A DNA stretch of 64,000 nt from Erysipelotrichaceae bacterium (lineage in GTDB: Bacteria; Bacillota_I; Bacilli_A; Erysipelotrichales; Erysipelotrichaceae). The translations under genes and the position numbers were made by a program. The DNA lies in assembly GCA_017428765.1 (NCBI GenBank), contig JAFRQF010000012.1:62001-126000 (forward strand), in the 5' to 3' direction. Below are positions 8,008-58,618 of this stretch, piece after piece. The notes beneath the pieces are model-generated. The model made no database searches, was not told the origin of the DNA, and worked only from the letters and a program-made list of their open reading frames with translations. How positions within the stretch are numbered: position 1 is the first letter of the stretch; each line of letters begins with the position of its first letter.

Positions 8008-8008
8008 T

Positions 8009-11170: not shown

Positions 11171-11191
11171 GAAAAAGGAGCGTTACGCTCC
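11171..11191 (-). terminator. Terminator with stop codon in the loop
   Basis: On the minus strand GGAGCG-TAA-CGCTCC followed by TTTTTC. The TAA of the membrane-protein gene is exactly the loop. Confidence 0.8.
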
Positions 11192-11677
11192 ATGGTGTTC
11201 GTGTGATTTGTTTCCAAGATACTTCCGGTTGAGGGTCAGTATCAATACGATATTGAATAAGAAGATGAAGATGAAATACTTCTTCACGTCATAGCCATAC
11301 GCCTTCAGAGTGAATATGCCGATCTCGATGCCGTGGCGAAGTCCCAGGAACGCGACGAACAGATCGATGATCGCGATGATCAGTGAGAGCATCTCGTGTG
11401 TCACGAAAGCTTCCGACAGGAACGGGATCATCAGACCGGCGATCTCGATCAGCATGTGTTCCTGAAATGCTTTCAGGTTCCAGCAGTATTTGAAGACCAC
11501 GATCCAGTTGTAGAACGGGATGAAACATGTCCAGGTCGGTTCATTGAAGGACTTGCACATGCGGTAGGTGCAATACACATCGATCAGATACAGGATGACG
11601 AAATACGGAAGACCGACGTGCTCAATGAATTCCAGTTCAAGCAGCGGTATCTTCTCGATGAAGTGCAGGATATTCAT
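11183..11677 (-). CDS. Small membrane protein (DUF5684-like)
   Basis: About 164 residues with four hydrophobic helices. The stretch PTWTCFIPFYNWIVVFKYCW resembles the conserved W-x-x-x-PFYN region of DUF5684-type membrane proteins; function unknown. The C-terminus is His-rich (SHEHHGA). I chose the ATG two bases after the mscS stop (TGATATG) because it has a GGAGA site at proper spacing and the product starts MNILHFIEK; a 21-residue longer frame overlaps mscS. It is translationally coupled to mscS and ends in an overlapping terminator. Confidence 0.65.
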   Translation of the reverse strand: MNILHFIEKIPLLELEFIEHVGLPYFVILYLIDVYCTYRMCKSFNEPTWTCFIPFYNWIVVFKYCWNLKAFQEHMLIEIAGLMIPFLSEAFVTHEMLSLIIAIIDLFVAFLGLRHGIEIGIFTLKAYGYDVKKYFIFIFLFNIVLILTLNRKYLGNKSHEHHGA

Positions 11678-11678
11678 A

Positions 11679-12533: not shown

Positions 12534-12548
12534 AACGTTCCCTTTCTT

Positions 12549-13400: not shown

Positions 13401-13406
13401 AAGAAC

Positions 13407-13434
13407 ATTATATAGGAACAAAGACAAGTATCAA
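13407..13434 (-). promoter_or_regulatory. Promoter directly abutting the DMT transporter start
   Basis: On the minus strand TTGATA, 16 bases, TATAAT; the GTG codon begins 7 bases past the -10 box, at the expected +1. Confidence 0.65.
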
Positions 13435-14558
13435 TCATTTTTCAGCAGTTTGTACCGCACCGGATTGGACAGTGAGAAGTACTGAAACTTCGTGTTCCAC
13501 CTGCCCCATCGCCTGCCGTAGGCATAGCCGATCAGCACGTCCTTGTCCGTGACCTGATGACCGCTCAGTGACTTTGCCACGCCCAGATTGTGGGCATAGT
13601 CTTCGATGTAGCGCTTGGTCGAATCGATATGCTCGAACGACTGACCGTTGTGCGAATAATAGACGGCGACTTTGGACGTCTCTGCCATGCGGTCTTCCAC
13701 CGCGAAAGCGAGAAACATTTTCAGATCGTCGGCATAAAAGACGTCAAAAGAATCCTGGGTGGTCCTGCCGATGACGGCACCCTTTTCTTCGATGGTCGCC
13801 GGCCAGTTCTCACCGGCTTCCGCCTTGGCCAGAGCCGTATAGCCGCCGGTCATATCGAAGTATGTGTAATAGATATATAAGTCCCTCTCGAGAAGGACGA
13901 AGCTGACTTCGCCGATCCCCCAGCCTCTGGGATCGTCTTTATAAGTCAGGATGGGTTCGGGCTTGCCTCCCCAGCCTTTGCCGTTCCATTTCTCATAGGG
14001 GCCTTCCGGCTTCTTTGCGCGGGCCACGAAGGCGTTGTTGTTCATGCCGCCGTGCCGATAATCGTCGGTCGAAGTATAGCCCAGGTAATAGTAACCGTCG
14101 AAATAGATGACGCCGGGATCGCAGACCGAACAGCGGTCTTTGGAATTCTTCGTCGGCTTTAAGACCGTCTTTTCTTTGGACCAGGTGATCCCGTCATCGG
14201 AGTGACGGTAAGTGATGTAGTCCCATTCGGTGGAGTTATTGCCCGGGGCAGAAAACCACGCATCAAAAGAGCCGTCTTCATTCTCAATGATCGAAGGTCC
14301 GTAGCGGTAGTAGCCTTCGGAAGTCCTGAAAACGATATTTCCTTCATCCTTTGCCTTGATGGTCAGATTGAGCGACTCGTCTTTGACGATGCCGAAAGGC
14401 TCTTCGATCATCGCAGCCGCCAGGCCTTTCACGGTAAAAAGGCTCCCGCCTTCCTGCTGTATCGTCTCTCCGCTGCTTAAAAACAGCGTACAGAACAAAA
14501 CGATGATGAAGACCGGCAAAAGGATAGGTTCATTGGCTTTCTTTCTGCCCTTAGACAT
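13431..14558 (-). CDS. Membrane-anchored five-bladed beta-propeller protein (GH43-like fold)
   Basis: N-terminal hydrophobic helix (residues 13-30, LLPVFIIVLFCTLFLSSG) without a lipobox, so an uncleaved anchor or signal peptide. The extracellular part (residues 75-370) has repeats typical of five-bladed glycosidase propellers: EGYYRYGPSIIENEDGSFDAWFS, SDDGITWSKE, CSVCDPGVIYFDGYYYLGYT, and PWGI/GIGEVSFV patterns. This suggests carbohydrate binding or hydrolysis at the cell surface. The catalytic Asp/Glu triad cannot be assigned with certainty. Single gene, divergent from cls. Confidence 0.7.
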   Translation of the reverse strand: MSKGRKKANEPILLPVFIIVLFCTLFLSSGETIQQEGGSLFTVKGLAAAMIEEPFGIVKDESLNLTIKAKDEGNIVFRTSEGYYRYGPSIIENEDGSFDAWFSAPGNNSTEWDYITYRHSDDGITWSKEKTVLKPTKNSKDRCSVCDPGVIYFDGYYYLGYTSTDDYRHGGMNNNAFVARAKKPEGPYEKWNGKGWGGKPEPILTYKDDPRGWGIGEVSFVLLERDLYIYYTYFDMTGGYTALAKAEAGENWPATIEEKGAVIGRTTQDSFDVFYADDLKMFLAFAVEDRMAETSKVAVYYSHNGQSFEHIDSTKRYIEDYAHNLGVAKSLSGHQVTDKDVLIGYAYGRRWGRWNTKFQYFSLSNPVRYKLLKND

Positions 14559-14598
14559 ACCTCTATTTTACCGCAAAGAAAGCTATAATAATAACTGT

Positions 14599-16131
14599 AT
14601 GAACAAGATCAAACGATTCCTTAAGACCTCCTTTTCCAGGATCCTGGTACTGCTGATCGCGGTGATCTTTCAGATCATCATCCAGTATTCTTTCGTACAC
14701 TGGCTCTACGACAAGCTCACCTGGATCGAAGCGTTCTTACGCCTGTTAGCGGTCATCATCACCCTTGGCATCGTCAAGAATTCAAGACACCTGTCGATGG
14801 ATATCGTCTGGGTCATCCTGATCAATATCTTCCCGCTCGTCGGTGCCGTATTGTATATCCTTCTGGGTGCCGATCTTTTCATATCCAAGACCTACCGAGA
14901 CATCAAGACGATGACGGAAGAAAGTGCCCGCTATTATACGCAGGATCCCGAAGTCATGAAAAAAGCCGGCGAAGTCACTCCCGACAAGATCGGCCAGTTC
15001 CGCTACATCTCTTCTTATGCCGGTTACCCGGTCTATAAGAACACCGGTTTTGAATACTACGACCTGGGCGAAAAGGGTTTTCCGGTGATGCTGGAAGAAC
15101 TGAAGAAAGCGGAAAAGTTCATCTTCCTGGAATACTTCATCATCGAAGAAGGCGTCATGTGGGATTCGATCCTGGCGATACTGGAAGAAAAGGCAAAACA
15201 GGGCGTGGAAGTCAGAGTCATGTATGACGACTTCGGTTCCTTCTTCCTGCTGCCGGGTTCCTATTACCGTACCCTTGAAGAAAAAGGCATCAAGTGTGTT
15301 CCGTTCAACCGCATCTCGATCCTCCTCAACGTCATCCTCAACCACCGTGACCACCGCAAGATCATGGTGATCGACGGCAAAGTGGCCTTCTCCGGCGGCA
15401 TCAACCTCGCCGATGAATACATCAATCACGTCAAGCGCTTCGGCAAGTGGAAAGACAACATCATAAAGATCACCGGCGAAGCCGTATGGTCCTATACCGT
15501 GATGTTCCTCACGCATTGGAATGCCTTGCGCAAGGAAGACCACACCTTCCTCTCCTTCCGAAACGAAGCGATCAAAGGCGAAGAGGACGGTTTCATCGCC
15601 CCTTATGGTGAGACACCGCTCGACGATGAGATCTGCGCACAGAACATCTATACCAACATCATCAACGAATCCAACGACTACTGTTATATCTGTACGCCGT
15701 ATCTGATCATCGATACCGAGATGATCAATTCGCTGATCCTGGCAGCCCGAAGAGGCGTGGATATCCGCATCATCACGCCGGGCATCCCCGACAAGAAGAT
15801 GGTCTTTGCGATTACCCGTTCCTACTACGAACAGCTGATCAAAGGCGGAGTGAAGATCTTCCAGTACGATCCGGGCTTCGTCCATGCCAAGGTGATGGCC
15901 TCAGACGATCAGATCGCGACGGTAGGCACCGTCAACCTCGACTACCGTTCCCTGTATCTGCATTTTGAAAACGGCGCCTTCCTCTACGGATCAAAGAAGA
16001 TCGACGCTATCCGAGACGATCTGATCTCGATGATGGAAGAAGGCCATGAAGTCACCCTCGCCGAGTGCGACAACGGACCGATCAAAGAATTCCTGTTAAG
16101 CATACTTCGCCTTTTTGCTCCGCTGATGTAA
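14599..16131 (+). CDS. cls: Cardiolipin synthase
   Basis: Membrane phospholipase D-family enzyme joining two phosphatidylglycerols into cardiolipin. Two N-terminal helices (around residues 12-33 and 38-60) and a PLDc_N segment ILINIFPLVGAVLYILLG precede two HKD motifs: NHRDHRKIMVIDGKVAFSGGINLADEY and FVHAKVMASDDQIATVGTVNLDYRS. 510 residues is the family length. I use the ATG at MNKIKRFLK because the longer frame overlaps the divergent gene. TATAAT ends 9 bases before this ATG and no ribosome site is present, so the message is nearly leaderless. Rubredoxin follows after 32 bases. Confidence 0.93.
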   Translation: MNKIKRFLKTSFSRILVLLIAVIFQIIIQYSFVHWLYDKLTWIEAFLRLLAVIITLGIVKNSRHLSMDIVWVILINIFPLVGAVLYILLGADLFISKTYRDIKTMTEESARYYTQDPEVMKKAGEVTPDKIGQFRYISSYAGYPVYKNTGFEYYDLGEKGFPVMLEELKKAEKFIFLEYFIIEEGVMWDSILAILEEKAKQGVEVRVMYDDFGSFFLLPGSYYRTLEEKGIKCVPFNRISILLNVILNHRDHRKIMVIDGKVAFSGGINLADEYINHVKRFGKWKDNIIKITGEAVWSYTVMFLTHWNALRKEDHTFLSFRNEAIKGEEDGFIAPYGETPLDDEICAQNIYTNIINESNDYCYICTPYLIIDTEMINSLILAARRGVDIRIITPGIPDKKMVFAITRSYYEQLIKGGVKIFQYDPGFVHAKVMASDDQIATVGTVNLDYRSLYLHFENGAFLYGSKKIDAIRDDLISMMEEGHEVTLAECDNGPIKEFLLSILRLFAPLM

Positions 16132-42567: not shown

Positions 42568-43626
42568 TTAAAGAAGATCGGCAAGCGCTTTTCCGCACTC
42601 TTTTGTAGAAGCAGTTCCTCCCTGATCGACCGTCAGACCGATCCGTTCCGTAAGCATCATCTCAATGGCATCCAGGATCTTCCAGCCCCACTGTTCATAT
42701 ACGAGATGATCGAGAAGCTGGGAAACTGCCCAGATCGTCGCAAGAGGATTTGCGATCCCCTTTCCGGCAATGTCCGGTGCCGAACCGTGGATCGGTTCAA
42801 ACATCGACGGAAACTTCCGTTCCGGATTGAGATTGGCACCGGCCGCCAGGCCCATGTCTCCGAAAATCGCTGCACCAAGATCAGTCAGAACGTCTCCGAA
42901 AAGATTTGAAGCGACGACGACCTTAAATCGTTTCGGATCCTTCACCATATACATGCTTGCGGCATCCACGAGAACGGTGTGCGTCTCTACATCCGGATAC
43001 TCTTTTCCGACTTCCTTGAAGATCTGATCCCAGAAGACCATGGAATAGTTCAATGCGTTTCCTTTTGAGATCGAAGTCAGAGTCTTTTTCTTTTCTTTTG
43101 CGACCTCATAAGCATACCGGATGATCCGCTCACATCCTTTGCGGGAGAATACGCCGTTTTGAATAACGACCTCCTGTGCCGTTCCCGGATAAAGCCAGGC
43201 ACCGCTTCCGGCATACTCGCCTTCACTGTTTTCCCGGATGAAGATCATGTCGATATCTTCACGACGCACATCTTTCAAAGGACATTTCGCGCCTTTCAAC
43301 AGATGGATCGGTCGGACATTGACATATTCATCAAAATCATGACGGATCTTCAACAAAAGATCGCGCAACGAGATATGATCAGGAACTCCCGGAAAGCCGA
43401 CGGCACCAAGTAGGATCGCATCCGATTTCTTCAGCAATTCCATGCCATCCTCCGGCATCATCTCGCCATGTTCAAGTTAATACTCACAGCCCCATGGATA
43501 TTTGCTGAACGAAAAACAGAAGCTTCCATCCAGCTCTGCGACACGTTTCAGGACTCTTACCCCTTCTGCGACGACTTCCTTGCCGATGCCATCTCCCGGG
43601 ATCAATGCGATATTATACTCTTTCAT
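42568..43626 (-). pseudogene. Tartrate/D-malate dehydrogenase (ttuC/dmlA-like) with in-frame TAA
   Basis: Isocitrate/isopropylmalate-dehydrogenase-family enzyme that oxidatively decarboxylates D-malate or tartrate. The N-terminal piece is MKEYNIALIPGDGIGKEVV...SKYPWGCEY, then TAA at 43477-43479. The reading frame continues without shift as LEHGEMMPEDGMELLKKSDAILLGAVG and on to the C-terminus with NLFGDVLTDLGAAIFGDMGLAAGANLNP. In intact homologues the stop position is normally Tyr (CEYYL), so one base change explains it. The rest of the 352 codons is intact. Recent inactivation or sequencing error; read-through is less likely. Confidence 0.85.
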
Positions 43627-44460: not shown

Positions 44461-44495
44461 AAGATCTCTCCCTGTGTTACCGCAGGGAGAAAGGA
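44461..44495 (-). terminator. Terminator between 2-hydroxyacid dehydrogenase gene and yczE
   Basis: CTCCCTG - loop - CAGGGAG, followed on the minus strand by AGATCTTTATTATC; outer bases GATCTC/GAGATC can extend the stem. Confidence 0.7.
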
Positions 44496-44499: not shown

Positions 44500-45477
44500 T
44501 TATTTGTTTACGATATTGAGAGCTTCCTGCCCTGCAGCAACTCTTTGCATATTGGCGATGCCGTTCTTCAGCATCCTTTCAAAAGCTTCGTTAGTGACGC
44601 CGCCCACATGGGTCGTGATGATCAGTTTTTCTGCAGCATGATCGGACAGGCGGAAGAAGATGTGATCTTCAGGCATCGGTTCCGGCGAAACGACATCCAG
44701 AGCTGCGCCATAGATCTCATCGGTCTCAAGAGCTTGCGCTAGTGCTTCGTTATCGACGATCTCGCCTCTTGCCGTGTTTACCAGCAAGGCGGTCTTTTTC
44801 ATCATCGCAAAACGCTCTTTATTGAACATATTGACCGTGGAAGGAAGGACCGGTACATGGATGGAGATGATGTCAGCCTCTTTGCACAGATCATCCAGTT
44901 CTCTGTAAGAAGCGTTGTATTGTTTCTCAACTTCCTCAGAAGGTCGGAAGGCATCATAGTATAAGATCTCGACATCAAAGTTCTGCAGTCTTCTCGCCGC
45001 TTCCTTGCCGATGGCACCGAAGCCGACGAAACCGACTTTCTTGCCGGCGATCTCATTTTCGCCCTGGGCGAGGAAATCTTTCTTGGTCTTGACAAAGCCG
45101 TCTTTCTTCAACTGCTTCATGTTCTGCGGTATCCTTCTCAAACTCGCCAGCATCAAACCAACGGTATGTTCGGCAACGGCACCGTTATTGACGGCACGGT
45201 TGTTGCAGACCGGGATATTCCTTTGCTTGGCAGCAGCTACATCGACTTTATCAAATCCGACACCTTCGGTATGGATCATCTTCAGACTTGGCAAGACATC
45301 CATCATCTCACCGGTGAATGCTTCAACGGAGCCGATGAATACGAAATCTGCATCTCCGGCAGCTTTCACATCATCAAGGGTGAAAGGGGCCGGCAGACGG
45401 GATACTTCCCAGTCCTCAGGAAATTCAGCACCATATTTTTCAAAACGGGCAGCCGGGATCGAAGTTAATACTTTCAT
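44500..45477 (-). CDS. D-2-hydroxyacid dehydrogenase
   Basis: 325 residues, NAD-dependent. The coenzyme motif is VGFVGFGAIGKEAARRL (residues 147-163). Catalytic Arg is in VNTARGEIVDNEAL, Glu in PEPMPEDH and His in ITTHVGGVTNEA. Substrate specificity is not readable. Being last before yczE in an operon with iorAB and ptb-buk, it probably reduces a 2-oxoacid (for example an arylpyruvate) to the 2-hydroxyacid, regenerating NAD. Its ATG overlaps the buk stop by one base. Confidence 0.88.
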   Translation of the reverse strand: MKVLTSIPAARFEKYGAEFPEDWEVSRLPAPFTLDDVKAAGDADFVFIGSVEAFTGEMMDVLPSLKMIHTEGVGFDKVDVAAAKQRNIPVCNNRAVNNGAVAEHTVGLMLASLRRIPQNMKQLKKDGFVKTKKDFLAQGENEIAGKKVGFVGFGAIGKEAARRLQNFDVEILYYDAFRPSEEVEKQYNASYRELDDLCKEADIISIHVPVLPSTVNMFNKERFAMMKKTALLVNTARGEIVDNEALAQALETDEIYGAALDVVSPEPMPEDHIFFRLSDHAAEKLIITTHVGGVTNEAFERMLKNGIANMQRVAAGQEALNIVNK

Positions 45478-46559
45478 CAGAATTTTTCCTCACTTTCATG
45501 ATATATATGCGCTTCCTCTTCGCCATTCAGCACTCGATATGCACCTTCGGCAAGAGCCTGCATCTCATTTTCACCCGGCATGACGACGACCGGGGCAATA
45601 AATTTCACTCTATCGATGACCATTTCCGTAAACATCTTGGAATAAGCGATACCGCCTGTTAACAGGATCACATCGATATTGCCGTTTACCACGACTGCCA
45701 GTTTGGCGATCGATCTGGCAACACCTAATGCCATCGCTTCGTAGACGAGCTTGGCATTCTCATCACCATCGGCGATCATCTTCTCGACATCCCTGGCATC
45801 CTGTGTTCCCAAAAGGGAAGTCAGGCCGCCCTTTTTCTGTAAGACCTTCATTGCCTTGGAATAGTTCAGATCATGATCGAAGACATATTTCAGCAGCTTG
45901 AAAGCCGGGATCTGGGAAGCTCTTTCCGGCGAGAAAGCACCTTCATCATCCGAGATCATATCGATCATCCTGCCCTTTGAATGCAGAGTGAAGGTGATAC
46001 CGCCCCCAAGATGAGCGACGATGATGTTCTTTTCTTTATAATCCAAGCCATTCTCTTTGCAATATCTCAAAGCAGTCGCGCGCATGTTCAAGTTATGACC
46101 CTGACCATGTCTTCTGATCTCCTTTAATCCGGTGATGCGGACTAACGGGATCATCTCATCGACGGTGACCGGATCATAGATATAGGCCTTGATGCCTAAA
46201 GGTTTTGCGATATTGTAACCCACGGCACAGGCAACGTTGGAGATATGGTGATTCATCGGATGATCTTTCAGAACTTCGATCATCTCGGGATTGACTTCAT
46301 AGGCACCGGATGCGACCGGCGGAAGCAGGCCCCCTCTGGTGACGATGGCGACGAGCTCTTCCGGCTTGTCTCCGTGTTTTTCCATGGCTTCCCTGACGAT
46401 ATCCGTACGCATATCCAGCTGTTCATAAGGAAGGTTGAACTGCTTCATATATTCGGGATCGTGTTCGATATTGTCCTGCCACAGCTTTTCACCGTTCTGA
46501 TAGATGGCAAGCTTTGTCGAAGTCGAACCCAGGTTGATGACTAAGAGTTTATCTTTCAT
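45477..46559 (-). CDS. buk: Butyrate kinase (acyl-phosphate kinase)
   Basis: 360 residues, ASKHA fold. VINLGSTSTKLAIYQ (residues 8-22), HHISNVACAVGYNIA, AHLGGGITFTLHSKGRMIDMISDDEGAFSPERA and LTGGIAYS are signature motifs. Makes ATP from an acyl phosphate. Starts one base after ptb. In this operon the acyl group probably comes from the 2-oxoacid oxidoreductase IorAB, so the true substrate may be an aryl- or branched-chain acyl phosphate rather than butyryl phosphate. Confidence 0.94.
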   Translation of the reverse strand: MKDKLLVINLGSTSTKLAIYQNGEKLWQDNIEHDPEYMKQFNLPYEQLDMRTDIVREAMEKHGDKPEELVAIVTRGGLLPPVASGAYEVNPEMIEVLKDHPMNHHISNVACAVGYNIAKPLGIKAYIYDPVTVDEMIPLVRITGLKEIRRHGQGHNLNMRATALRYCKENGLDYKEKNIIVAHLGGGITFTLHSKGRMIDMISDDEGAFSPERASQIPAFKLLKYVFDHDLNYSKAMKVLQKKGGLTSLLGTQDARDVEKMIADGDENAKLVYEAMALGVARSIAKLAVVVNGNIDVILLTGGIAYSKMFTEMVIDRVKFIAPVVVMPGENEMQALAEGAYRVLNGEEEAHIYHESEEKF

Positions 46560-46560
46560 T

Positions 46561-47466
46561 TTATACTCCCGTAGCCGCCAGACCGGCCAGAACGATAGAC
46601 AGATATTTCTCTTCCGGTGAAGACCCTCTGGAAGTCAGTACGATCGGACACTTGGCACCGATGATGATTCCGGCCATCTTGGCACCGACCGTGACAGTCA
46701 GCGTCTTACCGAAGATATTGCCGGCTGCCATATTCGGCATGACCAGCACATCGAAATCACCGCAGTACTCACATTCAAACTTCTTGTGCTCAGCGATATG
46801 TTTATCCATTGCGACATCATAAGAGATCGGACCGACGACCTTGCAGCCAGCGATCTCGCCATTCTCATTCATCTTCTGCAATGCATCCGCATCCACACAT
46901 TCCGTCATCTTCGGATTAAGTTTTTCAACGGCACAAAGTACGGCAAACTTAGGATCCTCATAACCCAGATTATGCAGGACCTCCGTCGCATTCTCGATGA
47001 TGGCCTTCTTCTGTTCCAGATCCGGATATACCAGCATACCGCCATCGGTATTGCCTAAAAGCTTATGATAACCGGGTACTTCATTCAAAGATATATGAGA
47101 CATGACTCTGCCTGTTCTTAAACGGTTCTCTTTGGAAACGACCGGCTTGAGGATGTCTTTGGTATCGATCATGCCCTTCATCAGGAAGTCAGCTTCCCCA
47201 TCCTGTACCAGTTCGACGGCTCTCTGGCCGATATTTTCAAAAGCACAGTCTTCGATACGGAAGTCTTCGACCTTTTGTCCCAGAGCGATCAAAGCTGCTT
47301 CGATCTTCTTTGCATCACCGACTAAGATCGGTTCGGCAACACCTTCCTCTTTTGCCCTCAAAACAGATTCGATGACAGCCTCATCGGCAGCACCGGCTAC
47401 GGCAACGACTCTCTTTTTCTGATTCTTTTTGGCGGCTTGCACCATCTCTTCGAAATTTGCGAACAT
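46561..47466 (-). CDS. ptb: Phosphate butyryltransferase (acyl-CoA to acyl phosphate)
   Basis: 301 residues. MFANFEEMVQAAKKNQKKRVVAVAGAADEAVIESVLRA and LTSRGSSPEEKYLSIVLA near the C-terminus, with the PDL...NMAAGNIFGKTL segment, match the Ptb/Pta family. Converts acyl-CoA and phosphate to acyl phosphate and CoA. It follows iorB across a hairpin that looks like a terminator, with its own AAAGGAG ribosome site, so its level may be tuned relative to iorAB. Confidence 0.93.
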   Translation of the reverse strand: MFANFEEMVQAAKKNQKKRVVAVAGAADEAVIESVLRAKEEGVAEPILVGDAKKIEAALIALGQKVEDFRIEDCAFENIGQRAVELVQDGEADFLMKGMIDTKDILKPVVSKENRLRTGRVMSHISLNEVPGYHKLLGNTDGGMLVYPDLEQKKAIIENATEVLHNLGYEDPKFAVLCAVEKLNPKMTECVDADALQKMNENGEIAGCKVVGPISYDVAMDKHIAEHKKFECEYCGDFDVLVMPNMAAGNIFGKTLTVTVGAKMAGIIIGAKCPIVLTSRGSSPEEKYLSIVLAGLAATGV

Positions 47467-47483
47467 TCTTATCTCCTTTAAAA

Positions 47484-47519
47484 ATAAGGGGCAGATCCTT
47501 ATTTGAATATGCCCCTTAT
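47484..47519 (-). terminator. Terminator-like hairpin inside the ior-ptb-buk operon
   Basis: ATAAGGGGCA - 16 bases - TGCCCCTTAT; on the minus strand it is followed by TTTTTAAAGG. It lies between iorB and ptb and may attenuate the distal genes or stabilise the upstream mRNA. Confidence 0.75.
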
Positions 47520-47529
47520 GAATACATTT

Positions 47530-48105
47530 TTACAGCGCGTATCCTCTTTCGAAAGCCAGGAGGTTGATCTCTTTGGCCTTCGCCGGAACCATATTACCTA
47601 CCAGTTCTTTCCAGTCGATGCCTTCCTGATCCAGGCCCATCTTCTTGACCAGCGATCCCAGCAATACGACATTGGAAACTCTGACATTGCCCAGTTCTTC
47701 AGCGATCTCGTTCGCCTTCAGGACTGTCAGATTCTCAACGGTCTCACCAAGCTTATCAAGCGCATCATGCGGATATTCCGCTGCACCGGTCAGAACCGAC
47801 ATCGGATGGATCTCGCGGTCGTCCGTGACGATGATACCGCCTTTCTTCAGATAAGGAAGAGCTCTGACAGCTTCGATCTTCTCGAAAGAAACGATCATAT
47901 CCGCTTCACCGATACCGATGTTCGGTGCATAGACTTTATCACCATACTTGATCATCGTAGTAACGGAACCGCCTCTTTGTGACATACCGTGGATCTCAGA
48001 CATCTTGACATCATAACCCAGTTTGAGCAGACCGGCGGTCAAGATCTTGGAAACAAGGATCGTACCCTGTCCGCCGACACCAACTAAAACGATACTTTTA
48101 ACCAT
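47530..48105 (-). CDS. iorB: Indolepyruvate:ferredoxin oxidoreductase, beta subunit
   Basis: 191 residues from the chosen ATG (MVKSIVLVGVGGQGTILVSKILTAG), which lies two bases after the iorA stop; a 20-codon longer frame overlaps iorA. This gamma-type domain carries GVGGQGT and EIHGMSQRGGSVTTMIKYG. It pairs with IorA to oxidise arylpyruvates (or related 2-oxoacids) to acyl-CoA with reduction of ferredoxin. Confidence 0.93.
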   Translation of the reverse strand: MVKSIVLVGVGGQGTILVSKILTAGLLKLGYDVKMSEIHGMSQRGGSVTTMIKYGDKVYAPNIGIGEADMIVSFEKIEAVRALPYLKKGGIIVTDDREIHPMSVLTGAAEYPHDALDKLGETVENLTVLKANEIAEELGNVRVSNVVLLGSLVKKMGLDQEGIDWKELVGNMVPAKAKEINLLAFERGYAL

Positions 48106-48107
48106 TA

Positions 48108-49880
48108 TTAAGCACCTACCTTTTCGATCGCGCCAAAGTGGCACATTTCCATACATAATCCGCACTGTGTACAGCTGGATTCATCGATCACCGGTCTGCC
48201 ATCCTTTAAGGAGATAGCCGGGCAGGCGATCTTCATGCACATCTTGCAGTTCTTGCACTTTTCGGTATTGATACGGCAGTGTTTGCCTGCATTTGCTCTG
48301 GCAACTTCCTTGATCATGACACAAGGTCTCTTGGTGATCAGGACGTAGACACCATCGGAAGCGATCGCCTTATCAAGAGCTTCCTCGACTGTTTTGAGAT
48401 CGATCGGATCGACGATTGCGATATGATCATCATCGATACCGGTAGCCTTGACTAAAGAAACGATATCTACGATCGGCGTCGGCTCGCCCATCAGGTTCTT
48501 GGCTGTGCCAGGATTGTCCTGATGACCGGTCATCGCGGTGATGGAGTTATCTAAGATACAGGCAACGATGTTGGCCTGTGAGGAGACGGCATTGATCAGA
48601 GAAGTCAGACCGGAATGGAAGAAGGTGGAGTCACCGACCATGCCTAAAGCCTTTCTCTTGTCGCCCTGCAGCTCGAGAGCTTTTGCCAGACCGATCAGAG
48701 AAGAGATGCCGGCACCCATACAGATGGAATAATCGAAACCATTCAAAGGTGCAGCAGAACCTAAAGCGTAACAGCCGATATCACCGACCGGAACGACCTT
48801 GTCAAGTCTCTTGGATAAAGCGAAGAAGAAGCCTCTGTGCGGGCAGCCTGCACAAAGCGCAGGAGCACGGCCCGGAACTTCAAAGCCCTGATAGAGTTCA
48901 GGCTTGGCAGCATCCGTCAAAGCCTCACGGACGATCTGCGCATTCAGTTCATCACAGATCGGAAGCTTTTCCTTGCCGATGGCATTAGTGAAACCTAAAG
49001 CCTTGACTTCTTTTTCAAGATAAGGATCATTCTCTTCGATGACATATAAAGTCTCATATTTCTCAGCGAATTCCTTCATGAGTTTATGAGGAAGCGGATA
49101 CGTAAGACCGAGTTTCAGGAAGTCAGCAGTTTCACCGAAAACTTCCTTGGCATGCTGGTAGGAAACGCCGGAAGTGATGATACCGACCGTGTTGCCTTCA
49201 TGCGTCTCGACGGTATTGAACGGACAGTCGTTGGAATATTCTTCCATCTTTTTCAGCATCTCTTCGCGGGCAACATGTCTTCTTCTGGCGACCGCCGGAA
49301 GCAAAGCGAACTTGCCGGTATTTCTTTCATACTTCCTGACACCGACTTCATTTCTCTCGCCTAATTCAACGATCGACTTCGCATGACAGATCCTGGTCGT
49401 CATTCTGATAAGCATCGGAACATCGAATCTCTCAGAAAGCTCAAAAGCAGCGACTGTGAAATCCTTGCATTCCTGTGAATCGGAAGGTTCCAGCATACCC
49501 AGCTTGGCATGCGGTGCATATAAACGGTTGTCCTGCTCGTTCTGTGAGGAATGGCAGCCCGGGTCATCCGCAGAAACGATGACCATACCGCCGTTGACAC
49601 CGGCATAACCCATCGTAAAAATCGGGTCAGTCGCAACGTTCATACCGACATGTTTCATCGTGACCAGAGCTCTGGCACCACCGATCGAAGCACCGGAAAC
49701 CAGTTCAGCAGCAGTCTTTTCATTGCAGGACCACTCGCAGTAAATATTGTCTTTGTACTTGACGACATCTTCCAGGATCTCAGTCGAAGGAGTTCCCGGA
49801 TAAGCAGCTGCTACCGTACATCCACCTTCATAAGCACCACGGGCAACTGCCTCATCACCACTTAAGATTACTTTTTCCAT
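48108..49880 (-). CDS. iorA: Indolepyruvate:ferredoxin oxidoreductase, alpha subunit
   Basis: 590 residues. An N-terminal pyrimidine-binding domain (AAAYPGTPSTEILEDVV, YCEWSCNEKTAAELVSGAS) is followed by a TPP-binding domain (MCMGAGISSLIGLAKALE, LGMVGDSTFFHSGLTSLINAV). A C-terminal ferredoxin domain has two 4Fe-4S motifs, CKNCKMCMKIACP and CTQCGLCMEMCHFGAI. The catalytic role is CoA-dependent oxidation of indole-, phenyl- or hydroxyphenylpyruvate; branched-chain 2-oxoacids are possible. Expression is probably repressed by the GntR/FadR-type protein, whose palindrome covers the transcription start. Confidence 0.95.
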   Translation of the reverse strand: MEKVILSGDEAVARGAYEGGCTVAAAYPGTPSTEILEDVVKYKDNIYCEWSCNEKTAAELVSGASIGGARALVTMKHVGMNVATDPIFTMGYAGVNGGMVIVSADDPGCHSSQNEQDNRLYAPHAKLGMLEPSDSQECKDFTVAAFELSERFDVPMLIRMTTRICHAKSIVELGERNEVGVRKYERNTGKFALLPAVARRRHVAREEMLKKMEEYSNDCPFNTVETHEGNTVGIITSGVSYQHAKEVFGETADFLKLGLTYPLPHKLMKEFAEKYETLYVIEENDPYLEKEVKALGFTNAIGKEKLPICDELNAQIVREALTDAAKPELYQGFEVPGRAPALCAGCPHRGFFFALSKRLDKVVPVGDIGCYALGSAAPLNGFDYSICMGAGISSLIGLAKALELQGDKRKALGMVGDSTFFHSGLTSLINAVSSQANIVACILDNSITAMTGHQDNPGTAKNLMGEPTPIVDIVSLVKATGIDDDHIAIVDPIDLKTVEEALDKAIASDGVYVLITKRPCVMIKEVARANAGKHCRINTEKCKNCKMCMKIACPAISLKDGRPVIDESSCTQCGLCMEMCHFGAIEKVGA

Positions 49881-49936: not shown

Positions 49937-49955
49937 TAACTGGTCTTACCAGTTA
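49937..49955. promoter_or_regulatory. FadR-like operator at the iorA promoter
   Basis: TAACTGGTCTTACCAGTTA, a perfect 8-bp inverted repeat around a 3-base centre. It is close to the AACTGGTC-N-GACC-N-GTT operator of FadR-type regulators. Located over the expected transcription start. Confidence 0.85.
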
Positions 49956-49960: not shown

Positions 49961-49990
49961 ATTATAAATGATATTATTATTTGTTTTCAA
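49961..49990 (-). promoter_or_regulatory. Promoter of iorA-iorB-ptb-buk
   Basis: On the minus strand TTGAAA, 18 bases, TATAAT. Confidence 0.75.
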
Positions 49991-50071: not shown

Positions 50072-51913
50072 TTAACCTGTGTAGCAGCCGTACTGTCCAT
50101 ACATGACAGCACCCAGACAGCACAGGATACCCATCAGGAATACACCCGGCCAGATCGAACCGGTCTTGCGATACAGATAGGTATTGCCGAATGCACCGAT
50201 GCTCATACCTACCGGCATGCCCCAAAGACGGGTCAGTTCGGAACTCCATGCCTGCATAACCGTGTAATCACGATAGGCAACATTGAGCTGCAGATAGAAC
50301 TGAACAATGATGATGACAGAGATCGGTAAGATCGATAATACGATGTTCATGACATACTGACGGATCGCATCCTTCTTCTCATCACCTGTTGAAGGCAATC
50401 TTCTTTCAACGTTCATCGACAAGTTGGAAAGGATGAAGCAGAGTACCCAGACGATGATATAAGGGAATAAGAACTTGAACTTGTTCCAGGCGATCGGTTT
50501 GAAGCCCCAGAACAGGCAATAGAAATCTGTACCCAGAAGCTTCGTCTGCATATCCAGATAGGTCCAGCCGATCGTTACAATGATGATCGCCACGACCAGT
50601 GACTTGAATACTTTCTTTGGTTCGATCTTTCTGGTCTTTTCATCTGCCAGGCCAAGGTCATAAAGGTCTGCATTCACTTTCTTGGCATCTGTGACCCAGA
50701 ACACATATAACATGACCAGACCGAACAAAGCGGAACCGACGACCAGTGAAAGGGCTCTTGTCGGATGACCCATATCAAAGCCGTGTGACTGCATGAAACT
50801 AAGGAGACCTAAAGTGCCGGTCTTCATATACAGTACCATCACCAGCATCGGAAGGACGATCGCGATCGCCAGTCCGACTTTTCTCAGGCCGATATTGCGA
50901 GGCATCGACTGTCTGATCTCTGCAAAAGCCGGGACCTGATCGAGAATAAACAGATACAGGAATACCAGCATTGCGGCAAAGGAATAAATTCCAAGCTGAC
51001 CGACGATATCTTTGTTGAACCAGACCTGATCGGAGTCGTCGATGTAATTTGGAACTTCGATCAACTTCTGTGAGAAATCCAGGAATGAACCGATCGTCAT
51101 TTTATTTGCGAACGCAAATTCGTGATTCTGTTTCGGAACAAGTACGCTCTGGAAGACTTTTCCGCTTTCAAATGAACCGTATACCTTGTTCCATTCGATC
51201 AGTTCACCTTCTTTGATAAACCCGTTGATCTGCGCATCTATGCTGCAGTTTTGAAGGTTGGTTTCATAACTGTTGGAATCGGAAGTTCCGGTCGTTAACA
51301 GGACAGCTCCATTATATGCGCCGGTCCACCTTTGGGTACCTGCACGGGATCCGCCGGCCAGGATCGCGCCTTTCAGCTGATACTTTTCCGAAAGAAGAGC
51401 TGAGGACGGACATCCCATGGAGTGGCCTGAAATGATCACGTTGTCTGTATCGACGTTGGTCATGTTCAGAAGATATTTCAGCCAATATTCCGGGATCGTG
51501 ATCTCTCTTTCCCAATATTCCGGGATCGGAGGAGCCTGCCCCGGAACGACAGAACCGCCGTAAGAATCAGATTCACCGGCACCATTCCAGTCGATCGACA
51601 CGACGACAAAACCTCTTCTGGCAAATTCCACAGCCCAGGACTCATGGTTCCTCGCGTTTCCTGCCGCACCATGGACCATCAGGATGCCCGGAGCTTTATT
51701 ATCTGTCCTTGCCTGTTTCGGCGTGTAGACCAGACCGCTGTAATCAAAACCATCATCACCTGTCATATGTACTCTTTGGATCTTGACATTGCCATGATCA
51801 GATACGATGTACCAGTTTAATAATGACAATAAAACCGTCAGCACTACTGTAATGATCAGCCTTTTGTACTTTTCTTCATTATTTCCCCTTTCTTTTAAGC
51901 AGGGATCATTCAT
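50072..51913 (-). CDS. Membrane protein with extracytoplasmic alpha/beta hydrolase domain (paralogue 1)
   Basis: About 613 codons. One N-terminal helix (YKRLIITVVLTVLLSLLNWYIV), an outward-facing hydrolase domain (around residues 45-300) with VHGAAGNARNHESWAVEFARRGFVVVSIDWNG and the nucleophile elbow ISGHSMGCPSS, then about eight membrane helices to the end. 45% or so similar by eye to the next gene. The start is uncertain: the in-frame ATG lies inside a 10-bp hairpin, while a good Shine-Dalgarno/ATG pair (ATG at 51879-51877) is out of frame by one base, suggesting a frameshift at the T-run 51870-51873. Substrate unknown. Confidence 0.75.
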   Translation of the reverse strand: MNDPCLKERGNNEEKYKRLIITVVLTVLLSLLNWYIVSDHGNVKIQRVHMTGDDGFDYSGLVYTPKQARTDNKAPGILMVHGAAGNARNHESWAVEFARRGFVVVSIDWNGAGESDSYGGSVVPGQAPPIPEYWEREITIPEYWLKYLLNMTNVDTDNVIISGHSMGCPSSALLSEKYQLKGAILAGGSRAGTQRWTGAYNGAVLLTTGTSDSNSYETNLQNCSIDAQINGFIKEGELIEWNKVYGSFESGKVFQSVLVPKQNHEFAFANKMTIGSFLDFSQKLIEVPNYIDDSDQVWFNKDIVGQLGIYSFAAMLVFLYLFILDQVPAFAEIRQSMPRNIGLRKVGLAIAIVLPMLVMVLYMKTGTLGLLSFMQSHGFDMGHPTRALSLVVGSALFGLVMLYVFWVTDAKKVNADLYDLGLADEKTRKIEPKKVFKSLVVAIIIVTIGWTYLDMQTKLLGTDFYCLFWGFKPIAWNKFKFLFPYIIVWVLCFILSNLSMNVERRLPSTGDEKKDAIRQYVMNIVLSILPISVIIIVQFYLQLNVAYRDYTVMQAWSSELTRLWGMPVGMSIGAFGNTYLYRKTGSIWPGVFLMGILCCLGAVMYGQYGCYTG

Positions 51914-51943
51914 TTTTATATGATCCCTGTCTGGGAAAACTGA

Positions 51944-53965
51944 TTATTTCAATACCGGTACTGTTGTGAAATCAAACTGATACTGTCCATACAAAGTACC
52001 CATGATGCAGGCGATGAAACCGATCAGCAGAGCACAGAACCAGACATTACCGGTCTTCTTATAGATATAGGTCGAACCTGTGGATGCGATCGCCATGCCT
52101 AACGGAAGTCCGAAGATACGCTGTACATCCAGGCTCGTCTTCCAGAATCCCGAACCATCGATCGCCCAGAGATTCGATGACTGTAAATGCCATTTCATTG
52201 CGACCAGAAGCGTTACAATGAAGACTGCGATGAACATGTTGATCAGCATGGATACGATGATGTCCTTCGTTTCGTTTCCGGTCGTCGGCAGACGGCGGAT
52301 AACGTTCATATCGACGTTGATGACCAGCTGGCAGAGCACATAACCGATCAAATACGGGAGCATCGCCGGAAGTTTTGCGATGTGAATATCCTTGTTTCCG
52401 AAGAACCAGCAATAGAAATCGGTACCGAATACTTCTAACATCAGTTGCATATACGACCAGCCGACCGCTACGACGATCAGGGTCAGAAGGATACTTGGAC
52501 CAAGCATCGACCAGACAGCTGCTGCTTTCTCTTTAAACGGAGCTTTGGCATCATAATCTGCCGGAGCAAGACCGAGATCGGCCAGCGTGTATTTTTCCTT
52601 TTTGCGGCTGACCAGGAAAGCGATCAGACCAAGCAAGGCAAACAAGCTGTTACCTAAAACGACGCCGAAGTTCAAAGAAGCATAACGCAGACGGAAACCG
52701 TACTTTACCATGTTTCTGCCCTGTGTGCCGATGAAGCCAAACAGGTCTGTCTTGATGACGATGTAAGGAATGACCAGACCCAGCAGCATGATGATCGGAA
52801 GCACGACGCCTCTTTCACCGATATTCTTCGCAATTGGACGTCTGACTGCCGCAAACGCCGGTACGCTGTCCATCAGAAGGAATGCCAGAGCAAATAAGAA
52901 ATAGGCAAACGCGATGCAGCAAAGCATGCCGGTATAGTCCTTATACATCCAGACCTGATCAGAAGAATCGATGAAATTCGGAACCTTATCGCCGATGATC
53001 TGCTGACCATACTTCAATAAGTTGCCGATCGTGATCTTGGAAACGAAAGCTGCTTCGTGGATTCGGTAGTCTTCTTTGCAGAAGATGAAACCTGTATTGT
53101 TTTCGAAGGAACCGTAGAGCTTATCCGGTTCGATCTCCGTGGCGTTCTCATAACCCGGATATTTATTTAAGATGTTGACACCTCTCTGCAAGAAGACGTT
53201 CCAATCACCGACACCCGAATAGTTGGTCATTTCTGCTTCACCCATACAGACGACACAGTTGCCGACCCACTTGAACCAGTCTTCATTCCATTCCGTATAG
53301 ATGATATCTCTTGGCTTTTCACCAGGTTTCCGACCCGGATCGTAAGTACCTTCCGGTGCCTTATAGTGGCCGGAGAACGGAGAGACACCGGCTGCTGTCA
53401 GGATGCCCTTGGCGTTGTATTTTGCGCCGAGATCCCAGGCCTGGGTCGTACCTGCCGAGTGACCTGTTGCCAGGATGTTATCTTTGTCGACGAACGGCAG
53501 ATTCAGCATGTACTGATACCAGAAGTTCGGTTCCAGATGACTTTCTTTTTCGGAATCCGTATATAACGCATCTCCCGAACCATTCAGATCAGGAACGATG
53601 ACGACAAATCCTCTTCTGGCGAATTCGACTGCCCATGATTCATGGTTTCTGGCATTGCCTGCCGAACCATGGAACATGATGACCGTCGGGGCCGGATTTT
53701 CATCGGTCGCCGTCTTAGGACGATATACCAGGGCGCTCCATTCAGCGCCGTTTGAACCTACTGCTTTGACTCTTTCGATATCGACTTTTCCCCAGTCGGA
53801 TATGATGCCCCAGTTCAATACAGTCAGGCATAACAGAACGATCAAAGAGATCACAAAACCCTTGCGGATCTTTTTAGACTCTTTTTTCTTGTGCTCAGGA
53901 TCGTAGAAATTCTCAGTCAGCTTCTGATCCATTTCTGCATCCATCTCTTTTTTGAAAAATGACAT
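51944..53965 (-). CDS. Membrane protein with extracytoplasmic alpha/beta hydrolase domain (paralogue 2)
   Basis: 673 residues from MSFFKKEMDAEMD (ATG behind GGAGATAAT). A 45-residue charged cytoplasmic head, one helix (GFVISLIVLLCLTVLNWGIISDW), a hydrolase domain with FHGSAGNARNHESWAVEFARRGFVVIVPDLNGSGDA and elbow ATGHSAGTTQAWD, then about eight helices from residue 350 on. The hydrolase faces outside by topology. No known family name fits; the C-terminal helices resemble a transporter-like or acyltransferase-like bundle. First gene of the pair; promoter covered by a cre site. Confidence 0.8.
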   Translation of the reverse strand: MSFFKKEMDAEMDQKLTENFYDPEHKKKESKKIRKGFVISLIVLLCLTVLNWGIISDWGKVDIERVKAVGSNGAEWSALVYRPKTATDENPAPTVIMFHGSAGNARNHESWAVEFARRGFVVIVPDLNGSGDALYTDSEKESHLEPNFWYQYMLNLPFVDKDNILATGHSAGTTQAWDLGAKYNAKGILTAAGVSPFSGHYKAPEGTYDPGRKPGEKPRDIIYTEWNEDWFKWVGNCVVCMGEAEMTNYSGVGDWNVFLQRGVNILNKYPGYENATEIEPDKLYGSFENNTGFIFCKEDYRIHEAAFVSKITIGNLLKYGQQIIGDKVPNFIDSSDQVWMYKDYTGMLCCIAFAYFLFALAFLLMDSVPAFAAVRRPIAKNIGERGVVLPIIMLLGLVIPYIVIKTDLFGFIGTQGRNMVKYGFRLRYASLNFGVVLGNSLFALLGLIAFLVSRKKEKYTLADLGLAPADYDAKAPFKEKAAAVWSMLGPSILLTLIVVAVGWSYMQLMLEVFGTDFYCWFFGNKDIHIAKLPAMLPYLIGYVLCQLVINVDMNVIRRLPTTGNETKDIIVSMLINMFIAVFIVTLLVAMKWHLQSSNLWAIDGSGFWKTSLDVQRIFGLPLGMAIASTGSTYIYKKTGNVWFCALLIGFIACIMGTLYGQYQFDFTTVPVLK

Positions 53966-54040
53966 ATTATCTCCTTTCGCCCCCTTACTCATTTCCTGCA
54001 TCAGACATCAGACATATGAGCTTCGGCTTTTTGTAATTTC

Positions 54041-56364: not shown

Positions 56365-57735
56365 CTATTTTCTGAACCCTTCGATCGCATCTTTCAATAT
56401 TTCAAAAGACTTGTCTTTTCCATATACGGAACTGTCAAGACAGATGTGATAATGTCTGGCCAGACCCCAGGAATGACCGGTAAAATGACGGCAATAGGAT
56501 TTTCTGAGATTGTCCTCCCATTCCAGGTCTTCCAGGATCGTCTGTTTGTCTTCGTGACGGTATTGAGATAATCTCTCTGCCCGATAGTTTCGATCAGCGC
56601 TGATGAAGATGTTGAAAGTGTTCGGCCGGTTCTTCAATATATAAGCTCCCAGTCTTCCGACGATCACGCAGCTTTCCTTGCCGGCAATATCCCTGATGAC
56701 TTTCTTCTGCGCATCGAATATGGCATCTGTCTCGCTTTCCTGCCTCGTGTATCCGTAACTCTGGTTATACAAGGTATACCAGACACCGTTGACCCTTTCT
56801 TCTTTTCTCGTGATCAGTTCGTTGGATAAACCGGTCTCTGCCGCTGCCTTCTCGATCAGATCGTAATCATAGAAAGCGATGCCCAGTTCCTTCGCGATCC
56901 TTTCGCCGATCTCATGTCCGCCGGAACCCAATTCTCTTTCGATCGTAATGACAAGCGGATAGTCTTCAGATAAGACAAAGACTTCTTTTTCTTCTTCGCT
57001 CTTGAAGAACGGCAGGTAACGGCTGCACAGCTGGGAAAAGTAACCGACCAGAAATGCACTCAGCAAAGTCCCTTCCCGAACGCCATCGATCTTCCCATAT
57101 ACCAGTAATGAGATCATTGCCGACAGGGCGACAAACAGCACATCATTTCCTATCTTTATCTGCCCGAACTGTTTCCTCATCTTCTTTGCGATCACGCTGA
57201 TCGCTCCTTCGGAAGCCATTGTCAGAAGTCTTGCATTGATCTCAAGATATAATCCGAATCCCATGAGGGCACAGGAAAAGATACAAAGAAGCACATTGAG
57301 CAGATAAGAAGATAAAGATATATTGCTTGTCAAAGACAGTGTATAATCCGTAAAGTAACCAAACAGGAATACCGTCAGCAGCTGAAGCAGGTTCATCAGC
57401 CTGTATTCTTTTTTCAGAAGGAAGACCTGTATCAGGACATAGATGATATTGATGGAAACCGTGACCGATCCCATAGAGATCGAAAAGATCTTCCCAAGAA
57501 GATAAGAAAGCGACGAGGAAGGCGATACGCCCAGACCTGATCTGACAGACAAGGCGACCCCCAAAGCCAGAAAAAACAGACCCGCCACAAGAAGTAAGCA
57601 GCGCTTCATAAATTCATTTCTTTTATTTTCCATATTCAAAAACCTGTTGTATTTCCACAGATCTATGATATCATGAAATTGGTAAGACCAGTTATCTATC
57701 TTCAAATCATTGGTCTTATCCGGGATATTACTCAT
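56365..57735 (-). CDS. YczE-type membrane domain fused to cytidylate-kinase-like domain
   Basis: 456 residues. Residues 43-245 form a YczE-like membrane domain (LLLVAGLFFLALGVALSVRSGLGVSPSSSLSYLLG ... GVREGTLLSAFLVGYFSQ). Residues 260-456 form a soluble cytidylate-kinase-like domain: LVITIERELGSGGHEIGERIAKELGIAFYDYDLIEKAA, KVIRDIAGKESCVIVGRLGAYIL and a C-terminal HYHICLDSSVYG. The start with AAGGAGG ten bases upstream (MSNIPDKTND) adds a polar 42-residue head whose DNA contains a TGGT-N3-ACCA palindrome; alternative starts are MENKRNEF and MKRCLLLV. Confidence 0.82.
   Translation of the reverse strand: MSNIPDKTNDLKIDNWSYQFHDIIDLWKYNRFLNMENKRNEFMKRCLLLVAGLFFLALGVALSVRSGLGVSPSSSLSYLLGKIFSISMGSVTVSINIIYVLIQVFLLKKEYRLMNLLQLLTVFLFGYFTDYTLSLTSNISLSSYLLNVLLCIFSCALMGFGLYLEINARLLTMASEGAISVIAKKMRKQFGQIKIGNDVLFVALSAMISLLVYGKIDGVREGTLLSAFLVGYFSQLCSRYLPFFKSEEEKEVFVLSEDYPLVITIERELGSGGHEIGERIAKELGIAFYDYDLIEKAAAETGLSNELITRKEERVNGVWYTLYNQSYGYTRQESETDAIFDAQKKVIRDIAGKESCVIVGRLGAYILKNRPNTFNIFISADRNYRAERLSQYRHEDKQTILEDLEWEDNLRKSYCRHFTGHSWGLARHYHICLDSSVYGKDKSFEILKDAIEGFRK
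57677..57693. promoter_or_regulatory. FadR-like palindrome near the start of the YczE-kinase gene
   Basis: AATTGGTAAGACCAGTT, with TGGT-AAG-ACCA core identical in form to the iorA operator. A degenerate copy (TGGTCTTATCC) follows about 30 bases away. Confidence 0.75.
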
Positions 57736-57831: not shown

Positions 57832-57863
57832 TGCTATAATATTTGGTAAGGTGGTATTACCAC
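57832..57863 (+). promoter_or_regulatory. gntR promoter with overlapping autoregulatory operator
   Basis: Extended -10 TGCTATAAT (TATAAT at 57835-57840), then GTGGTATTACCAC at 57851-57863 with core TGGT-ATT-ACCA across the transcription start. Confidence 0.8.
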
Positions 57864-57880
57864 TTTCAAGGAGAATTGAT

Positions 57881-58618
57881 ATGGCAAATAAATCTGCTTT
57901 GAATCTCGAACCGGTAGAAACAAAAAAAGCTTCTGTAGCGATCTTTGAACAGATCCGTGACAAGATCGTCTCCGGCGAACTGAAACCCGGTGATCTGCTT
58001 CCTTCCGAACGACAGATGACTGAAATGTTACAAAGATCCAGACCAACGATCCGGGAAGCTTTGCGCATGCTGGAACAGTCCGGTTTCATCAAGACGACAA
58101 TCGGCACTGCCGGTCCGGTCGTTCAGGAATACAAGCTTTCCAATCTCTCGGTCCCGATGGAGAATATCCTGAAAATCAATGAAGTCACCGATTATGAAGT
58201 CTATGAATATAGAAAAGAATGCGAACGCTTCGTTGCAGCCTGGGCAGCTCTTCGCAGAACAAAAGAAGATATTGAAAAGATGCGGATCATTATTGAAGAA
58301 TCAAAACGATGCGTCGATGAGAAACGCTATCTCGATATCCTGGATCTCGATCTCAGATTTCATGAAGCGATCTATGAAGCTTCACACAACAAAGTCGCAG
58401 GCATCCTGAATTCGATCACACATGACATCACCGAAAATTCCATTGAAAAGATCCTGGTGAATGCCGAAGAAAAGGAAAGGAGCGCCTTCGTCAAAAAGAT
58501 CGTCAAAGCACATACGGCGATCTTTGATGCGATAAAAGAAAAAGATGAGAAGGCCGCAAAAAGCGCGATCACTTCCCATCTGGAAAGTTTCAACAAAGAC
58601 TACAAGAAAGTCTTATAA
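57881..58618 (+). CDS. GntR-family regulator, FadR/FCD subfamily
   Basis: 245 residues. Winged HTH at residues 18-82 with KIVSGELKPGDLLPSERQMTEMLQRSRPTIREALRMLEQSGFIKT. An all-helical FCD effector domain (residues 95-240) follows, with metal/ligand residues in DLDLRFHEAIYEAS and AHTAIFDAIKEKDEKAAKSAITSHLESF. ATG behind AAGGAG. It most likely binds the TGGT-N3-ACCA palindromes at its own promoter, at iorA and at the YczE-kinase gene. The ligand is probably a carboxylate such as a 2-oxo- or 2-hydroxyacid, as is common for FCD proteins. Confidence 0.93.
   Translation: MANKSALNLEPVETKKASVAIFEQIRDKIVSGELKPGDLLPSERQMTEMLQRSRPTIREALRMLEQSGFIKTTIGTAGPVVQEYKLSNLSVPMENILKINEVTDYEVYEYRKECERFVAAWAALRRTKEDIEKMRIIIEESKRCVDEKRYLDILDLDLRFHEAIYEASHNKVAGILNSITHDITENSIEKILVNAEEKERSAFVKKIVKAHTAIFDAIKEKDEKAAKSAITSHLESFNKDYKKVL

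Follow-up and report, generated by a model that had tools for sequence, protein, structure and literature searches.

Clusters in which a 2-oxoacid:ferredoxin oxidoreductase (OFOR) is encoded together with a phosphate acyltransferase and an acyl kinase have been described by Jiang et al. (2026), and are presented there as widespread in anaerobic Firmicutes (PMC13285125). According to the same text, the pathway to the aryl acid and ATP was demonstrated for HpdDEFG-HpdJ-HpdK of C. scatologenes, and the kinase beside the indolepyruvate oxidoreductase (IOR) of C. difficile (cluster Cd2) was most active on phenylacetate and hydroxyphenylacetate and less active on indoleacetate (IA). In a second report, two-subunit PPFOR-like enzymes acted on aromatic 2-oxoacids, and OFOR loci co-occurred with Ptb and Buk homologues (PMC13290082). 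Here, a related operon was analysed in a stretch of 64,000 nucleotides (the window) from an Erysipelotrichaceae bacterium (GenBank assembly GCA_017428765.1, contig JAFRQF010000012.1, positions 62,001 to 126,000 of the forward strand). Its five genes encode both subunits of an IOR (IorAB), homologues of phosphate butyryltransferase (Ptb) and butyrate kinase (Buk), and a D-2-hydroxyacid dehydrogenase (HDH). We consider it quite likely that this is a regulated catabolic operon, of clostridial origin, for the aromatic 2-oxoacids derived from tryptophan, phenylalanine or tyrosine; it would produce arylacetate and ATP, and in it HDH would provide a link to D-aryl-lactate.

As in the window, the C. 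difficile Cd2 and C. scatologenes Hpd clusters combine an oxidoreductase with a phosphate acyltransferase and an acyl kinase, the products being an aryl acid, ATP and reduced ferredoxin. Cd2 shares the IOR family with the window, and its kinase was assayed. HpdDEFG is VOR-related and has four subunits, unlike the window IorAB. Both clusters come from Clostridia and not from the window lineage, and the text available for them reports no D-2-hydroxyacid dehydrogenase (PMC13285125). The PPFOR/IOR enzymes of Intestinibacter bartlettii and Blautia hydrogenotrophica also have two subunits and lie in loci with Ptb and Buk homologues; unlike the window, these loci carry aminotransferases, no HDH is mentioned in the accessible text, and the hosts are described there as acetogens (PMC13290082). 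The FldH-dependent reductive branch of aromatic Stickland metabolism (C. sporogenes, C. botulinum) resembles the window in the interconversion of arylpyruvate and D-aryl-lactate by a dehydrogenase, the reaction proposed here for HDH (PMC13285125, PMC5758686). This likeness is one of reaction type, and in contrast to the FldH pathway no dehydratase, activase or CoA-transferase was seen in the window. Within the host family, all five other IorA-bearing genomes (L058-L062) share IorAB, but a PaaK-type AMP-forming ligase (a call made by NCBIfam resemblance below cut-off) replaces Ptb-Buk, an ACT-domain protein is present in four of the five, and their IorA belongs to a different clade. The OFOR-Ptb-Buk core is already a known kind, and the HDH linked to it is the new element. 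The literature searched yielded no account of such an operon with a D-2-hydroxyacid dehydrogenase linked to it or with an LldR/PdhR-type operator, although this does not prove that there is none.

The five genes, all encoded by the minus strand, spanned 44500-49880 and followed one another as iorA, iorB, ptb, buk and HDH, with intergenic spacings of 2 (iorA/iorB), 63 (iorB/ptb), 1 (ptb/buk) and -1 (buk/HDH) bases. The genes and their predicted transcription signals are as follows.

49961-49990, minus strand: predicted sigma-70-like promoter, TTGAAA-18-TATAAT, matching the consensus at 11 of 12 positions
48108-49880, minus strand: iorA, indolepyruvate/arylpyruvate:ferredoxin oxidoreductase subunit alpha, 590 aa; above the TIGR03336 cut-off; TPP_enzyme_C, POR_N and Fer4 domains; motifs intact
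47530-48105, minus strand: iorB, subunit beta, 191 aa, ATG at 48105; above the NF005325 cut-off; POR domain
47484-47519, minus strand: hairpin in the iorB/ptb spacer, followed by a T run; fold -19 kcal/mol, z -3.3
46561-47466, minus strand: ptb-like phosphate acyltransferase, 301 aa, proposed phosphate arylacetyltransferase; PTA_PTB, below the TIGR02706 cut-off; clade support 100/100
45477-46559, minus strand: buk-like acyl kinase, 360 aa, proposed arylacetate kinase; above the TIGR02707 cut-off; clade support 100/99; motifs
44500-45477, minus strand: HDH, 325 aa, NAD type, proposed D-aryl-lactate dehydrogenase; PF02826 and PF00389; relatives adjacent to IorAB
44465-44492, minus strand: intrinsic terminator, a hairpin 3' of HDH; fold z -4.6

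The gene upstream of the ior operon ended in a strong terminator. Because of this terminator, the single promoter-like site and the hairpin terminator after HDH, the predicted transcription unit comprises exactly five genes, in agreement with the original prediction, the coordinates of which were exact. An OFOR, a phosphate acyltransferase and an acyl kinase are therefore co-encoded in one predicted transcription unit, as in oxidative aromatic Stickland clusters. The hairpin between iorB and ptb may be a partial terminator or a processing site, from which two expression levels may result. A downstream YczE/DUF6198 gene was considered as a sixth operon member and rejected, since a strong terminator lies between. 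There were no Rfam matches in the window, and riboswitch or T-box control of the ior operon was therefore set aside.

In the proposed pathway, IorAB would act on an arylpyruvate, namely indole-, phenyl- or hydroxyphenylpyruvate, by oxidative decarboxylation, with arylacetyl-CoA, CO2 and reduced ferredoxin as products; the Ptb homologue would exchange the CoA for phosphate, and the Buk homologue would transfer the phosphate to ADP, yielding ATP and free arylacetate. HDH would interconvert the same arylpyruvate and D-aryl-lactate with NAD(H), and an LldR/PdhR-like protein of the GntR/FCD type, the gene of which lies 8 kb away, would probably repress the promoter until a 2-oxo- or 2-hydroxyacid is present. 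We infer all substrates, the direction of HDH, and the regulator and its ligand. The route from arylpyruvate through arylacetyl-CoA to ATP and arylacetate, as originally predicted, was supported by family cut-offs, gene trees, genome content and published assays of the equivalent C. difficile and I. bartlettii enzymes.

IorA scored 678.7 bits against TIGR03336 (cut-off 650.9), and IorB, encoded directly behind it after the 2-base gap, scored 252.5 against NF005325 (cut-off 230). The thiamine pyrophosphate (TPP) motif GDS...LDN and two 4Fe-4S motifs of IorA were intact when read from the sequence. By family cut-off, IorAB is of the aromatic type, and activity on aryl 2-oxoacids is predicted for it.

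Ptb belonged to PTA_PTB; its best models were phosphate butyryltransferases, all below cut-off (TIGR02706, 308.2 bits, cut-off 410.5), and one clostridial IorAB-linked Ptb likewise fell below the TIGR02706 cut-off (341.5 bits). Buk, the motifs of which were read as intact, passed the butyrate kinase model TIGR02707 (395.4 bits, cut-off 289.1); since this model also accepts an IorAB-linked kinase, the score does not show that butyrate is the Buk substrate. The window Ptb formed a five-row clade with clostridial copies (100/100), of which three of the four loci are Ptb-IorA-IorB-Buk and the fourth (L008) ends near a contig edge; most Ptb of the host family fell in a separate clade. The window Buk fell in a clade of 12 rows (100/99), most of which are IorAB-linked. 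Both proteins therefore group with clostridial, mostly IorAB-linked copies and not with most Ptb and Buk of the host family. A second butyrate-kinase-like gene of the genome (C3; locus L063, 8998-10098) lies among sugar phosphotransferase system, rpe and rpiB genes, with no Ptb beside it and in a different clade from the window Buk; related Buk genes, likewise standing alone, are present in further genomes of the family (L093-L095).

The genome assembly comprised 2.4 Mb in 37 contigs and was 94% complete. A TPP domain search identified two ferredoxin-dependent 2-oxoacid oxidoreductases, the window IOR and a PFOR-type protein of 1173 aa; the remaining TPP-domain matches resembled transketolase and Dxs proteins on inspection. 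No VOR-type enzyme was found beside the PFOR in this 94%-complete genome, and no match to acyl-CoA dehydrogenase (PF00441), the family that would include a butyryl-CoA dehydrogenase. Three weak PF00676 matches, considered as an E1 or branched-chain 2-oxoacid dehydrogenase, were rejected as split transketolases. Since acyl-CoA dehydrogenase, VOR and E1 were lacking among the families searched, IorAB is the only visible source of non-acetyl acyl-CoA for Ptb in the assembly. The earlier statement that no butyryl-CoA pathway genes lie nearby held for the window genes examined, and the absence of acyl-CoA dehydrogenase across the assembly pointed to the lack of a butyrate route in the genome as well. 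As the window Ptb was the only PTA_PTB protein in the genome, acetate was considered as the Ptb-Buk substrate; it was dismissed because the genome also encodes PduL and AckA, which can cover acetyl phosphate and acetate formation.

HDH contained both 2-Hacid_dh domains (PF02826, PF00389) and reached no named equivalog. Its motifs were read as intact, namely the Arg, Glu and His of ARGE, SPEP and TTHVGG and the NAD-type nucleotide motif GxGxxG...D; the nearest solved structures were phosphoglycerate dehydrogenase and glyoxylate reductase. In 398 clostridial genomes, relatives were found at 16 places (E <= 1e-50), four of which adjoined IorAB, compared to 0.04-0.09 expected by chance. The gene order was HDH, IorA, IorB in L176; HDH, ligase, IorA, IorB in L178; and IorA, IorB, HDH in both L185 and L186. 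The last two HDH proteins are 83.5% identical and thus near relatives, so that the four places represent three independent lineages. The window HDH grouped in one clade with all four (100/99). Downstream of HDH in L185 and L186 (cluster spans 5974-15666 and 1880-11554, respectively) lie an AMP-forming ligase, a BadF/HgdC-type ATPase, two HGD-D subunits, a PaaK homologue and then an MFS transporter; these loci apparently hold the oxidative and reductive branches of aromatic (aryl 2-oxoacid) Stickland metabolism in one cluster. Genes for 2-hydroxyacyl-CoA dehydratase occur near the HDH relatives of L185 and L186 and near L179; among the window genes examined, no aryl-lactyl-CoA dehydratase was found beside HDH, as would be expected of FldH-type co-encoding. 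Because its relatives adjoin IorAB, at two loci together with a 2-hydroxyacyl-CoA dehydratase, HDH probably acts on the arylpyruvate/aryl-lactate pair, the linkage to IorAB being the best indication available. The second 2-oxoacid that had been postulated for the dehydrogenase is not needed, since these relatives point to the same arylpyruvate.

The ior promoter carries a putative operator, copies of which recur at the gene of a candidate regulator.

49938-49954, unstranded: 17-bp perfect palindrome AACTGGTAAGACCAGTT, putative LldR/PdhR-type operator, directly behind the -10 box of the ior promoter
57677-57693, unstranded: palindrome AATTGGTAAGACCAGTT, almost identical, overlapping the first codons of a divergent DUF6198/cytidylate-kinase-like gene
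57849-57865, unstranded: copy of the operator core TGGTNNNACCA, preceded by a TATAAT and lying ahead of the GntR/FCD gene
57881-58618, plus strand: GntR/FCD regulator, candidate for the ior operon; PF00392 and PF07729

The core TGGTNNNACCA occurred three times in the 64 kb, where 0.45 occurrences were expected, and none of 100 shuffles reached three. The same sequence has been published as the motif bound by LldR, a repressor of lactate utilisation (PMC9600882), so that the ior promoter has an operator of the LldR-regulon type; the PdhR box is AATTGGTnnnACCAATT (PMC7660256). The GntR/FCD protein resembled NanR, LldR, PdhR and GlcC, below every cut-off (LldR model, 105 bits, cut-off 311), and its effector is likely to be a 2-oxo- or 2-hydroxyacid. 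The three TGGTNNNACCA palindromes tie the ior operon, the GntR/FCD gene and the divergent DUF6198/YitT-like and cytidylate-kinase-like fusion gene into a candidate small regulon. An LrgA/LrgB pair adjoins the GntR/FCD gene.

IorA was rare in the host group, being present in 7 of 392 sampled genomes of the phylum, 6 of 146 of the family and none of five other sampled members of the genus; in the phylum to which the clostridial relative G502 belongs, it was common (255 of 398 genomes). A quick tree placed the window IorA in a five-row clade with clostridial IorA (SH-aLRT 100), separate from the PaaK-linked IorA of the family. The operon was probably acquired from clostridia by horizontal transfer. 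The nearest relatives of IorA are not those of Ptb, so that the module would have been reshuffled during acquisition. The clostridial loci fetched included approximately 20 with Ptb and/or Buk beside IorAB and approximately 18 with a PaaK homologue, proportions that do not represent a random sample because the loci were picked by similarity to the window IorA. One locus (L154) had the gene order iorA-iorB-ptb-buk of the window, and a Ptb-IorA-IorB-Buk operon (L009) adjoined a GntR/FCD gene and an aminotransferase.

Several observations weigh against a catabolic operon for aromatic 2-oxoacids. Among individual matches to Buk, the nearest (L089, 50% identity) adjoins a VOR-like enzyme and not IorAB, and the host-family copies L034 and L036, within the Buk clade, had no IorAB in the 1.5 kb of sequence covered. 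The window HDH is only 35-38% identical to its IorAB-linked relatives, other HDH relatives lie near TRAP/Tct transporters or sugar genes, and HDH was in none of the sampled IorAB-Ptb-Buk loci. The absence claims rest on an incomplete assembly and the few families searched, and the five-gene operon contains no aminotransferase. Per arylpyruvate, IorAB-Ptb-Buk yields one ATP and one low-potential electron pair, as established for systems of the OFOR-Pta-Ack type. Conversion of an amino acid to the 2-oxoacid releases two electrons if the nitrogen is lost as ammonia via glutamate dehydrogenase, and reduction of the 2-oxoacid to the hydroxyacid takes up two. The conversion of amino acid to hydroxyacid is thus redox-neutral and, by stoichiometric arithmetic, HDH cannot absorb the four electrons of the oxidative branch. 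A closed Stickland pair with HDH would need transamination to another acceptor, further reduction as in the fld pathway, or another sink. For these reasons, and given the lack of an aminotransferase, the description of the operon as a self-contained Stickland-like module was not upheld.

HDH may be reductive or oxidative, and oxidation of D-aryl-lactate is also a live alternative. Here HDH would run toward the 2-oxoacid, and D-aryl-lactates from lactic acid bacteria would be converted to arylacetates and ATP, an aromatic counterpart of lactate oxidation. An operon with HDH and without an aminotransferase is consistent with this, as are the LldR motif TGGTNNNACCA (PMC9600882), a regulator that resembles LldR, PdhR and GlcC, the LrgAB pair beside it, and the HDH-clade relatives L175 and L176, which adjoin TRAP uptake transporters and one of which is also beside IorAB. 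However, the dehydratase genes linked in L185 and L186 suggest the reductive direction, the operon has no TRAP or lactate permease, and NAD-linked oxidation of 2-hydroxyacids is, from textbook biochemistry, unfavourable unless the products are removed; we regard this direction as possible but not as the probable one. A dedicated catabolic unit, in which D-phenyl- or indolelactate from other bacteria would be oxidised by HDH, the arylpyruvate would pass through IorAB-Ptb-Buk to arylacetate and ATP, and an LldR-like repressor would respond to the hydroxyacid, is suggested only tentatively and is rather doubtful. It is improbable that HDH is an unrelated passenger in the transcript, such as a D-lactate or hydroxypyruvate reductase: the generic family, the lack of a named equivalog and the nearest structures would fit such a role, but HDH overlaps buk by one base and its relatives recur beside IorAB in three independent lineages.

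The annotation names, the Buk score above the butyrate kinase cut-off and the VOR-linked nearest Buk match would agree with Ptb and Buk serving branched- or straight-chain acyl-CoA (isovalerate, isobutyrate, butyrate) and merely sharing a promoter with IorAB. In view of the failure to find acyl-CoA dehydrogenase, VOR or E1 in the 94%-complete genome, the Ptb score below the butyryltransferase cut-off, and the gene trees, this is very unlikely. Similarly, there is little likelihood of a reverse, assimilatory module of the kind proposed for IorAB with PaaK, in which Buk, Ptb and IorAB would carboxylate aryl acids and the resulting arylpyruvates would feed the synthesis of aromatic amino acids. 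In its favour, a PaaK homologue accompanies IorAB in each of the five other genomes of the family found to carry IorA, together with an ACT-domain protein in four, and it has been argued that an IOR with an AMP-forming ligase may be biosynthetic (PMC13285125). Against it, PaaK is lacking from the window operon, which has Ptb-Buk; the window IorA lies in a different clade; and HDH would drain the arylpyruvate.

With a catabolic operon for aromatic 2-oxoacids as the preferred reading, the products of genes that carry butyrate annotations probably act on aryl acids, and do so in a lineage that does not belong to the Clostridia, the group in which the pathway was described. The operon gives a testable link between aryl-lactate and arylacetate, together with a named candidate regulator and operator. 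If the aryl-lactate catabolic unit were correct, it would constitute an aromatic lactate-oxidation pathway, with cross-feeding from lactic acid bacteria to phenylacetate or indoleacetate. Gut-bacterial phenylacetate and indoleacetate act on the host. The effects of phenylacetate include endothelial senescence (PMC12176623).

Two observations concern the neighbouring genes. Directly upstream of the operon, at 50072-54001 on the minus strand, genes for two large membrane proteins lie in tandem; each protein has an alpha/beta hydrolase domain at its N-terminus, and the two appeared mutually similar by eye. A tartrate/D-malate-dehydrogenase-like gene at 42568-43626 on the minus strand contained an in-frame TAA after 49 codons with the remaining frame open, and is either a broken gene or the result of a sequence error.

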